NCBI RefSeq assembly: GCF_000384295.1
Contig: NZ_KB913037.1
Span: forward strand, 6,134,822 to 6,198,821
Direction: 5' to 3'
From: Amycolatopsis balhimycina FH 1894
GTDB taxonomy: Bacteria; Actinomycetota; Actinomycetes; Mycobacteriales; Pseudonocardiaceae
DNA: 64,000 nucleotides
Below are positions 44,127 to 46,193 of the stretch, in pieces. Made by a program: the position numbers and the translations under genes. How positions within the stretch are numbered: the stretch's first letter is position 1; each line of letters starts with the position of its first letter. The notes under the pieces were generated by a model that made no database searches, had not been told where the DNA came from, and was given only the letters and a program-made list of their open reading frames with translations.

Positions 44127-45710
44127 TCAGAAGGGCCAGTCGGCGTGGATACCGCGTTCGAGCAGCGGGATCATCCGGAACGCCTGGTCGGTCAGGCCGC
44201 CGAACGTGTGCCGGTGCGCGCTCCCGGACGGCGCGTGGCCGTACCGGTAGCCCGCGAGGTTCCACGTGTACAGCGGGACGTGCGCGGGCAGCGCCTGCCC
44301 GACGTCGCCCCACCCGGCCTGCTCGTCGGTGAGGATGACGACGCGGTCGTGCTTCGCGAAGTGCTTCTTCAACGCGCCGGCGGTGTTGGTGCCGCCGCCG
44401 AGGAAGAACCCGCCGGACTTCCAGCGCTCGACGTCGCTCAGCAGCGAGCCGCCCGGGCGCAGCTTGAACACCTTGGTCCGCGCGCCGCCCAGGAAGCTGT
44501 CCGAGAACGACACGATGTCGGCGTCCGCGCAGCGCCGGCCCAGTGCCAGGCCGAACACCGCGGCCGCGTCCCAGCGCATCAGGGTGCCGTCCTTGCTGAA
44601 GCCCATGTTCATCGACGCCGACGTGTCGACGAGGACGAGCGTGCGGCCGGCCGGCACGGGCACGTTGGCCAGCGCGTGCGAGACCGCCTGCTCCAGCGCC
44701 CACGCCCAGCGCAGCGAAGGCGCCGCGCGGTAGGCCGACAGGAACCGCATCGGCAGCTGCCGCGACTTCGCGATCTGCGCGGGATCGGCGAGCCGCCCGG
44801 CCACCCGCTGCGCGACCTCGTCCGAGACGCCGGCCTCGTCGAAGTTGCGGAGGTTCCGCAAGAGAGCCATGTAGCCCATCGACGGGATCAGCGCCTCCCA
44901 GACGCGGGCGTCCAGGGGACCCTGCAGCCAGCCGGCGACCGACTCCCAGGTCATCCCCGCCGCGCGCAGGACGTCCGCCGCGCCGGGACGGGCGAACAGC
45001 TCACGGCGGCGGCCGGCGTCCCACGACAGCAGCTCGGCCCGGGCCCGGAGGGTCTCCAGGCCGGCCGGGATCGCGTTGCCGCGGTCGTGCCGCTCGTCCA
45101 GGATGTGCCGGAACAGCCCGGCCTGCCCGGCGTCGCGGTGGCCCGGGTGGGTCAGCTCCAGGACGTCGGCGAACCGGAACGCCCGCGAGGCGGAGTCCCA
45201 CTTGACGAAGGACCGCTCGTCGTAGAGCTTCTCCACCGCGTCGGCGATGCCGCGCTTGACCGGCTTCGGCACGGCCCGGCCGTGCACGGACGTCCAGTAC
45301 GCGAGCAGCTCACCGGGCTCGTCGGCCCGCTGCAGGACACTCGCGACGACCTGACGGCTCAGCCCGTCGAGGCCCGCGTCCCGCCGCGCCTTGGCGAACT
45401 CGGCCGCGCCGACGAGCGCCGCCGTGCGCAGGTTCGCGTCGGTGCGCAGCCAGCGCAGGAACCGCGCAGTCCACTGTGGATCCTCGAGGGTGGACTTCCG
45501 GACGAGCCCGGCGTAACGGGTGTCGCGGGTGTCCGCGGTCTCGTAGTAGGTGTGCTCGCCGGCCATGGTGGTCACGGCGAGCAGGAAGAGCTCCGACCGG
45601 GCGTCGCGCGCGTAGCCGGCGCCGCCCTGGTGGGTGACCGTGGACGGCGTGGCCTCGCCGCGGACCGGCGAGGTCGCGGCGGGTGCTCGTGCGGTGTTGA
45701 ACTTGCTCAT
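44127..45710 (-). CDS. rsr: Ro60/TROVE-domain RNA-binding protein
   Basis: This 527-residue orthologue of the Ro60 autoantigen (bacterial Rsr) is a HEAT-ring protein that binds Y RNAs and misfolded RNA. The TROVE domain covers residues about 20-340 (ELFLLAVTTMAGEHTYYETA, ALIPSMGYMALLRNLRNFDE). The vWA-like domain follows with the MIDAS motif DTSAS (D362, S364, S366), GGTNT and LTDE. Rsr assists RNA turnover or repair, in Deinococcus by tethering PNPase through Y RNA. The ATG is preceded by GGGGGAAG. No rtcA/rtcB is near. Three Y-RNA-like structures lie directly upstream on the same strand. Confidence 0.93.
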   Translation of the reverse strand: MSKFNTARAPAATSPVRGEATPSTVTHQGGAGYARDARSELFLLAVTTMAGEHTYYETADTRDTRYAGLVRKSTLEDPQWTARFLRWLRTDANLRTAALVGAAEFAKARRDAGLDGLSRQVVASVLQRADEPGELLAYWTSVHGRAVPKPVKRGIADAVEKLYDERSFVKWDSASRAFRFADVLELTHPGHRDAGQAGLFRHILDERHDRGNAIPAGLETLRARAELLSWDAGRRRELFARPGAADVLRAAGMTWESVAGWLQGPLDARVWEALIPSMGYMALLRNLRNFDEAGVSDEVAQRVAGRLADPAQIAKSRQLPMRFLSAYRAAPSLRWAWALEQAVSHALANVPVPAGRTLVLVDTSASMNMGFSKDGTLMRWDAAAVFGLALGRRCADADIVSFSDSFLGGARTKVFKLRPGGSLLSDVERWKSGGFFLGGGTNTAGALKKHFAKHDRVVILTDEQAGWGDVGQALPAHVPLYTWNLAGYRYGHAPSGSAHRHTFGGLTDQAFRMIPLLERGIHADWPF

Positions 45711-45717
45711 TTCTTCC

Positions 45718-45733
45718 CCCTCTTGCAGGAGGG
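45718..45733 (-). promoter_or_regulatory. Hairpin overlapping the rsr ribosome-binding site
   Basis: On the transcript CCCTC (45733-45729) can pair with GAGGG (45722-45718) around a 6-nt loop. The GAGGG arm is part of the GAGGGGG ribosome site of rsr. Closing it would limit rsr translation. Confidence 0.45.
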
Positions 45734-45747
45734 AGCCACGGCCACAG

Positions 45748-45889
45748 CGATGCCCGAGATCGAAGTCGGTGAAGGTACGTTGCTGCTCTGCCGGCTGAGC
45801 TACCGGGCCACTTGCGTGGTCCGGGAGGGATTCGAACCCCCGACCTGCCCATTAAGAGGAAGTAACCCTCGCCTGCGCACCGGGCATCG
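45748..45889 (-). ncRNA. yrlA: Y RNA with permuted tRNA-like domain (YrlA type)
   Basis: A 142-nt structured RNA lies just upstream of rsr. The ends pair over 9 bp (CGATGCCCG with CGGGCATCG). An inner stem (45873-45865 with 45776-45768) holds one A-C mismatch and one G-U. The insert between them reads as tRNA parts in permuted order: a T-arm with loop TTCGAAT (45841-45825), the 3' acceptor strand CCGGACC, a loop ACGCAAGT, the 5' acceptor strand GGCCCGG, TA, then a D-arm GCTC-AGCCGGCA-GAGC (45800-45785). There is no anticodon arm between the halves; the Y stem takes its place. This is the known YrlA design (tRNA mimic bound by Rsr). Confidence 0.85.
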
Positions 45890-45901
45890 GTGAAGCCGCG
45901 G

Positions 45902-45972
45902 CTCCCGAGATCTTCGCCGCCCGCGGGTTTCGTGTTTACAGCATGAAGTAACCGCGGGCTTCGCACCGGGAG
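45902..45972 (-). ncRNA. Minimal Y-RNA-like hairpin
   Basis: This 71-nt structure has an outer stem CTCCCG/CGGGAG. An internal loop carries GGTGCGA on the 5' side and GCGAAGATCT on the 3' side. The inner stem (GCCCGCGGTT at 45959-45950 with AACCCGCGGGC at 45929-45919, one bulge) is near-perfect. The apical loop starts TTACTTC and has no tRNA-like part. The order of elements is the same as in the two flanking structures. Confidence 0.68.
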
Positions 45973-45991
45973 TGCGTGATGAAGCTGGTGT

Positions 45992-46073
45992 GCCCGAGGT
46001 CGCTGGTGGTGAAGGCTTTCGGGAGTCGAACCCAAGGGATACCAGAGAAGTAACCCTCACCGTCGCACCGGGC
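45992..46073 (-). ncRNA. Y-RNA-like structure with T-arm-like hairpin
   Basis: This 82-nt structure has an outer stem GCCCG (46073-46069) with CGGGC (45996-45992). An internal loop carries GGTGCGAC on the 5' side and AGCGACCT on the 3' side. The inner 8-bp stem is GGTGAGGG/CCTTCACC. The insert starts TTACTTC and contains a T-loop-like hairpin GGG-TTCGACT-CCC (46033-46021). It is first in the array and begins about 8 nt after a candidate -10 box, where transcription should start. Confidence 0.7.
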
Positions 46074-46080
46074 GAGATCC

Positions 46081-46108
46081 ACGATAGCGCCCGGGCCGCG
46101 ACGCTCAA
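46081..46108 (-). promoter_or_regulatory. Promoter of the Y RNA array
   Basis: On the minus strand, TTGAGC (46108-46103) and TATCGT (46086-46081) are 16 bp apart. The predicted start falls within a few bases of the first Y RNA. Since the gaps between the three structures are 12-20 nt, one promoter may serve all three and perhaps rsr. Confidence 0.6.
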
Positions 46109-46193
46109 ACCGGTTTTCCGCGTCCGGCTCCGGCTGCCCGGGGTGACAGGCCGCCGTGCGCCAAGTAGTTCGTGTCAAGAATCATGTATGCTA

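Follow-up and report, generated by a model that had tools for sequence, protein, structure and literature searches.

An array of Y-RNA-like modules upstream of the Ro60 gene rsr in Amycolatopsis balhimycina, and an apparent anticodon arm in the tRNA-like heads of related Y RNAs

The 64,000-nt window that we analyzed, from contig NZ_KB913037.1 of Amycolatopsis balhimycina FH 1894, carries on its minus strand a gene for a bacterial Ro60 ortholog, rsr, with three modules of Y-RNA type immediately upstream. An initial annotation of this DNA had proposed three such structures, and we found each at exactly the minus-strand coordinates proposed. The features of the locus, listed from its upstream end, are as follows:

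46114..46119, minus strand: GGAAAA element, upstream of the promoter and ~30 nt before the -10 box
46103..46108, minus strand: putative -35 box TTGAGC, 16 nt upstream of the -10 box, weakly conserved
46081..46086, minus strand: putative -10 box TATCGT, its position ahead of the first module conserved in 15 of 18 close loci
45992..46073, minus strand: RNA1, 82 nt; Y-type, with outer stem, GGTGCG/ACCTCGGG internal loop, inner stem and T-arm-like hairpin
46019..46035, minus strand: T-arm-like hairpin within RNA1; 5-bp stem and TTCGACT loop, class T by sequence
45902..45972, minus strand: RNA2, 71 nt; Y-type, with long inner stem and plain loop, identified by the module finder
45748..45889, minus strand: RNA3, 142 nt; Y-type with a tRNA-like head, YrlA-related by RF02553, R1 and covariation
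45847..45859, minus strand: degenerate equivalent of an anticodon arm in RNA3, from alignment A1; CTCTTAA loop kept, 5′ stem strand short by 2 nt
45825..45841, minus strand: T-arm of RNA3 (helix 5 of the covariation analysis)
45803..45824, minus strand: acceptor-stem hairpin of RNA3, closed, without a free CCA end (helix 6 and fold)
45785..45800, minus strand: D-arm of RNA3 (helix 7 of the covariation analysis)
45715..45735, minus strand: hairpin between RNA3 and rsr, covering the Shine-Dalgarno region
44127..45710, minus strand: rsr, bacterial Ro60 ortholog, 527 aa

RNA1 was recovered both by our module finder and by R1 (20.3 bits), a covariance model built from 54 of the 59 tRNA-headed RNAs found, and R1 scored RNA2 at 30.3 bits and RNA3 at 134.9 bits. 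The analysis upheld the proposal that a common Ro-type stem bears three apical parts, namely a T-arm hairpin, a bare loop and a tRNA-like domain. In keeping with membership among the Y RNAs, a Ro60 ortholog is adjacent, and the basal stem has an internal loop with conserved bases, the columns of which were invariant.

The annotation had also drawn a promoter, TTGAGC/TATCGT, that would start transcription at the first structure. Its placement held up, in that a TAnnnT box lies just ahead of the first module found (RNA1 or RNA2) in 15 of the 18 loci with closely related Rsr, and further upstream in L013–L015, where the finder sees RNA3 only; a sigma-70 promoter scan found no site, and the -35 box is weakly conserved. 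The GGAAAA element recurs in 10 of these 18 loci and in three from Saccharothrix (L039, L040 and L042). The hairpin ahead of rsr overlaps the Shine-Dalgarno sequence in most Amycolatopsis loci, and at L053, L054, L064, L071 and L077 it is terminator-like, with a T run. ARAGORN found no tRNA array near rsr in the window, and an RtcB-type repair operon was considered and rejected, as neither rsr nor the four neighboring ORFs scanned beside it included RtcB, RtcA or RtcR.

Nothing in the window reached the gathering cut-off of any Rfam model. RNA3 has the T-arm, acceptor hairpin and D-arm of the YrlA family in the same permuted order and matched its model, RF02553, at 33.4 bits, under the gathering score of 69 bits; RNA1 and RNA2, with their T-arm and loop heads, lack a tRNA-like domain with a D-arm and gave no RF02553 match. 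As a tRNA gene RNA3 also fell short, with no ARAGORN call in the region and 15.3 bits against RF00005 (cut-off 29). Elsewhere, one set of seven loci reached at most 55.9 bits with RF02553, and the first Rhizobium RNA, at 74.5 bits, was alone above the cut-off among the 13 loci put to Rfam. At its cut-off, the current Rfam model therefore misses most of the RNAs tested here.

We assembled 66 distinct rsr loci, 25 from Amycolatopsis genomes and 41 from a named set, leaving out L025 (the same gene as L028), L026 and L027 (a fragment and a weak match), the paralogs L029 and L030, ten named duplicates, and L079 (whose match spans residues 283–527 only). At L025/L028, in genome G055, rsr lies in two overlapping pieces, reflecting a frameshift or a sequencing error, with three modules upstream. 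The finder reported 135 modules in the 66.0 kb upstream of the 66 loci, compared with none on the antisense strand and four in 246.9 kb of coding and downstream sequence; because it was tuned on the same loci, its counts are descriptive. Every locus had at least one upstream module, 64 by the finder and two (L055 and L068) by R1, with the match at L055 lying ~1.5 kb upstream of rsr. Thus, relatives that keep rsr did not lose the stem pairing; such a loss would have counted against the annotation. Chance hairpins were considered and rejected: none of 2000 shuffles of the 516-nt leader gave two or more modules, and the antisense and coding controls agreed. The outer helix was 97.3% paired, with 8 of its 9 pairs changed on both sides, values biased by the finder's use of outer stems in selection. 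Pairing of the inner stem was only moderately above that of swapped partners (loop-class means of 7.4 versus 5.6), and RNAalifold, run on 27 of the 31 loop-class RNAs (alignment A2), predicted the outer stem only.

At one extreme of these modules the head is a full tRNA-like domain; at the other there is only a bare stem of 27 nt. Classified by regular expression, 59 modules had a full tRNA-like head (one with a changed D-arm), 35 a T-arm, 31 a loop, and 10 were stubs, with some T-class RNAs (such as the last of L039) having a D-arm of another type. The number of modules per locus was zero at 2 loci, one at 19, two at 24, three at 17, four at 3, and five at 1. Among the 64 loci with finder modules, 45 had at least two and 43 had more than one class; a full tRNA-like module was found at 56, and this was the class nearest rsr at 49. 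Three of the other eight loci (L023, L039 and L078) had strong R1 matches. The bare stubs of 27–29 nt keep both internal-loop strands and have no head, and that of Catelliglobosispora has a different outer stem. At L045, L039, L065 and L021, some D-arm sequences are what we take to be Glu- or Gly-like, and the heads look as if they mimic different tRNAs.

Among the 18 loci with closely related Rsr, a tRNA-headed RNA3 was present in all 18 and was always last, and a T-type first module resembling RNA1 was present in 13 (L013 has a fused, stub-like first module missed by the finder). RNA2 was of full length in 4 and reduced to a 27–41-nt stub in 9; at the remaining 5 loci it was not found. Such instability of the middle RNA among close relatives weakens the case for a fixed three-RNA system.

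Searching 60 Amycolatopsis genomes with R1 yielded matches of at least 77 bits in 25, each adjoining rsr; 24 of these genomes have a full-length rsr (that of G055 in two pieces), and G033 has a fragment. In G009, which has a full-length rsr and a T-class RNA, the R1 score was 37. The 34 genomes without a full or fragmentary rsr (33 in which rsr had no match at all, and G021, where the match was weak) had no R1 match above 55.3 bits. The presence of modules at all 66 distinct rsr loci and the lack of a strong match in these 34 genomes bear out the annotated Y-RNA identity, with the proviso that the result for the genus is not fully independent because 18 of the 54 R1 training RNAs came from the genus sample. 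Of the 12 R1 places that we fetched, 11 were weaker matches, all overlapping ARAGORN tRNA genes and mostly at tandem-tRNA junctions; four such junctions (L112, L113, L114 and L116) scored as a permuted head at 46–55 bits, and junctions of this kind are a possible origin of that head. The twelfth (L117) was the Y RNA of G033, a tRNA-headed RNA (G+C 0.55, 91.4 bits) beside a C-terminal rsr fragment only. Several genomes of the genus encode a second TROVE protein, ~45% identical, and at the two paralogs examined (L029 and L030) the search found no Y RNA alongside.

Class-wide and viral loci, which apart from possible near-duplicates lay outside R1 training, gave a similar picture. An rsr match occurred in 25 of 197 genomes of the class, with R1 matches at 25 of the 26 rsr loci scanned, missing only at an rsr fragment (L106). 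In IMG/VR, R1 matched at 79 of the 80 rsr loci kept (of 255), missing only at L170, which has 69 nt of upstream sequence, and all 163 matches were on the rsr strand. One viral locus (L175) had six matches, and at L196 the matches lay downstream of rsr. For distant Ro genes of phages and plasmids (at most 28% identity; R1 at E up to 0.1), matches were found at 7 of 8 loci in a first set and 4 of 6 in a second. Several were weak, including those at Natrinema L209 (at most 28 bits) and the tRNA-rich L203, L205 and L207, and these may be tRNAs. No R1 match was found at L208, L212 or L213, all three plasmid-borne, in Allomeiothermus and two Pseudomonas strains, and L212 and L213 also had no RF02553 match. 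These three loci and the two paralogs indicate that a Ro-type protein is not always accompanied by a detectable Y RNA of this kind. At L207, on the Bifidobacterium longum plasmid NZ_CP146883.1, the Ro-type gene lies among 19 ARAGORN tRNA calls, close to a gene of the RNA ligase family, and is directly followed by R1 matches scoring 43 and 33 bits.

We aligned the 54 tRNA-headed RNAs (alignment A1) and found seven helices in which 97.6% of 1871 cells were paired, with a covariation of 0.465, compared with at most 46.1% and 0.077 for slid-partner controls; changes on both sides of a pair occurred in all seven helices, at 27 of the 36 pairs. An anticodon arm, not predicted by RNAalifold alone, was located by eye and then tested with named pairs and fixed tRNA positions. 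The strand after the D-arm supplies the tRNA pairs 27-43 and 28-42, which were 99.1% paired, with GC, CG, AU and UA alternating, and the strand after the Y motif UUACUU supplies pairs 29-41, 30-40 and 31-39, for which 86.9% of cells were paired (10, 6 and 2 unpaired cells and 0, 11 and 14 gapped rows of 54, respectively). Jointly, the five pairs were 92.2% paired with a covariation of 0.534, and slid partners reached no more than 46.5% and 0.053, although the five pairs did not beat shuffles on two of five measures (double-change pairs and further pair types). Judged from this alignment, the five pairs are the anticodon stem, with the Y stem entering its 5′ strand between tRNA positions 28 and 29. 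At fixed tRNA positions, with the usual 5-nt variable loop, all three outer pairs formed in 38 of the 54 RNAs, compared with 0 or 1 at other offsets from -3 to +3. The loops of these 38 had C32 in 32, U33 in 37, variable positions 34–36, A or G37 in 37, and A38 in 36.

We then turned to 114 further RNAs (A5), none identical to a member of A1, contributed by 85 of the 106 loci of the class and viral sets, after leaving out evident duplicates and loci without a match at E 1e-13; because A5 was found with R1, which contains the arm, this hold-out is not blind. Among the 111 that could be scored, the three pairs formed in 44 at the standard register and in 27 at +1, which corresponds to a 4-nt variable loop; the other five offsets gave 0, 6, 2, 1 and 1. 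U33 and A38 were both present in 28 of 28 at +1 (one more RNA being counted here), and in 35 and 44, respectively, of the 44 at the standard register, where some exceptions are register ambiguities. Over all 168 tRNA-headed RNAs, 102 passed our anticodon-arm rule and 66 did not. Those that passed have a 7-nt loop of the form CU-NNN-RA on a covarying stem, as parts of a circularly permuted, nearly complete tRNA. ARAGORN made 42 sense tRNA calls on the 168, of which 33 gave the triplet that we had assigned, 5 were register-shifted, and 4 were on RNAs without the arm.

The permuted-tRNA head with its arm also occurs in phages, Deinococcus and Alphaproteobacteria. Among 17 phage and plasmid RNAs, it was found in those of Deinococcus taeanensis and Methylosinus, the second Rhizobium phaseoli RNA, two of three Xanthomonas-phage RNAs, both Rhodococcus-plasmid RNAs and the first Gordonia-phage RNA, and was not found in the first Rhizobium RNA, those of Bosea, Natrinema and Bifidobacterium, the third Xanthomonas-phage RNA, the second Gordonia-phage RNA, the two of GiJojo, or that of Atuin. 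Ten of the 18 close loci have a full arm, and RNA3 of the window is one of the eight with a 5′ strand short by two nucleotides, seven of which keep the CU-NNN-AA loop framework (L006 has lost it). In the window RNA3, the three Watson-Crick pairs 29–31/39–41 that would close a 7-nt loop were not found, and from its sequence the arm is probably not formed there. Because the window arm is damaged, the case for an anticodon arm rests on the relatives.

Our observations are of sequence, pairing, conservation, linkage and gene order. The explanation that we favor, and regard as likely, is that a single promoter yields a leader of three Y RNAs followed by rsr, in which the RNAs share a Ro stem and differ in their heads; the fold of Rsr, which we examined, was counted in its support. 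Our analysis suggests that the common basal stem and internal loop are most likely the binding site of the Rsr ring, and by analogy with work in Deinococcus and Salmonella the RNAs would bind Rsr and gate it or tether a nuclease such as PNPase. The differing heads would then decide what the ribonucleoprotein touches and may choose its partners: that of RNA3, a permuted tRNA-like domain, could recruit, or be read by, factors that handle tRNA, and those of RNA1 and RNA2 would offer only a T-arm and only a loop. The annotation's idea of three distinct gate or guide RNAs, cut from a common precursor, is likewise putative. The hairpin ahead of rsr would cut read-through or translation, so that more Y RNA than Rsr would be made; for this effect, as for different partners of the three heads, our proposal is without precedent.

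The modules might instead act in the rsr mRNA as a cis-regulatory leader, with Rsr binding its own leader, the hairpin over the ribosome-binding site setting translation, and free Y RNAs arising as by-products. Such a role would suit modules that lie on the rsr strand and mostly directly upstream, headless stubs (including that of Catelliglobosispora) that keep both internal-loop strands, and the occlusion of the Shine-Dalgarno sequence in most Amycolatopsis loci. We nevertheless consider it improbable, because a pure cis element would hardly account for the detailed conservation of the tRNA-like heads, the hairpin resembles a terminator in several lineages, some modules lie outside the immediate leader (as at L196 and L055), and the binding of Y RNAs by Rsr is established for Deinococcus, Salmonella and M. 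smegmatis (PMC4726728).

Far less probable still, in our view, is a reading of the modules as tRNA pseudogenes in decay or as fragments of tandem tRNA genes. Such an origin would account for the 11 weak R1 matches over tRNA genes, the 42 sense ARAGORN calls on tRNA-headed RNAs, and the arrays that adjoin tRNA arrays, but the double-sided changes in all seven helices disfavor decay, the Y stem is common to modules without any tRNA part, and strong R1 matches occur beside rsr only; remnants of tRNAs may nonetheless describe where the head came from. Unlikely, though to be taken more seriously than either of these, is the notion that RNA3 is the sole functional module and that RNA1 and RNA2 are degenerating duplicates. 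The persistence of RNA3 in 18 of 18 close relatives, compared with 13 for a T-type first module and 4 for a full-length RNA2, speaks for it; against it stand the near-identity of RNA1 and RNA2 in L002 (the closest relative), the reappearance of loop- and T-class modules in different families, and the Ro-type stem that even the stubs retain. A leader of three Y RNAs with one Ro stem and different heads remains the reading that we prefer.

Multiple Y RNAs accompanying a single Rsr have been described before, as have Y RNAs that mimic tRNA. YrlA RNAs (RF02553; Salmonella and M. smegmatis) likewise have a Ro-type basal stem beside rsr and a permuted head made up of a T-arm, a closed acceptor hairpin and a D-arm; a review (PMC8394870) describes this head as resembling the D, T and acceptor arms, the only ones that it names, and as modified by DusA and TruB. 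They differ from the RNAs described here in that the Rfam consensus has no anticodon arm, which is complete in many relatives and damaged in the window, and in that our loci have several modules, some without a tRNA part, with RNA3 below the Rfam cut-off. The RYPER complex of Deinococcus radiodurans (Rsr, Y RNA and PNPase) also combines a single gene for the Rsr ring with a neighboring Y RNA, which tethers PNPase (PMC4726728), but has one head where the window has three. The Salmonella rsr-yrlBA-rtcBA RNA repair operon resembles the window in having more than one Y RNA per Rsr (PMC7790460), whereas the window has three RNAs, all upstream of rsr, and no Rtc gene in the ORFs scanned.

A TROVE gene is found in 20 of 29 archaeal tRNA clusters (PMC6333295), and at least five ARAGORN tRNA calls, a few of which are Y RNAs taken for tRNAs, occurred at 8 of 52 named rsr loci (L048, which is the L023 locus, L062, L064, L067, L068, L075, L077 and L079; up to 26 calls, at L077), unlike at the window rsr, with no nearby tRNA array. 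At L064, L075 and L077 the tRNA array ends directly before the Y RNAs. Bacterial Y RNAs are said to have been defined by Chen et al. in 2014. In the literature covered, which did not extend to that paper, we found neither an anticodon arm described for Y RNAs nor arrays like these. What seems to be new is the anticodon arm in the Y RNAs of relatives, an unexpected structural feature.

Finders of tRNA genes and phage annotators can mislabel tRNA-headed Y RNAs. In three phage records, annotated tRNA genes (L204:3704-3775, L203:3769-3843 and L210:2801-2868) lie inside R1 matches directly upstream of the Ro gene, and for this reason are probably mislabeled Y RNAs.

The heads of these Y RNAs form a natural series on one Ro stem, from a bare stem through a loop, a T-arm, and a T-arm with an acceptor hairpin to a full permuted tRNA, and because the stem is conserved, a single protein would suffice for testing what each tRNA part does. 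PMC7790460 proposes YrlA as a competitive inhibitor of an anticodon nuclease and reports YrlA fragments as undetected in Salmonella; the anticodon arm makes this proposal directly testable. The loop keeps U33, R37 and A38 as the triplet varies, and we tentatively suggest, as a possibility that we rate well short of likely, that widespread Y RNAs carry an entire permuted tRNA, including its anticodon arm, and offer anticodon nucleases, or enzymes that act on the anticodon loop, a generic anticodon, with Rsr ribonucleoproteins acting as tRNA decoys or damage sensors. If true, such a role would explain the presence of these RNAs in phages, tRNA arrays and RNA-repair loci.
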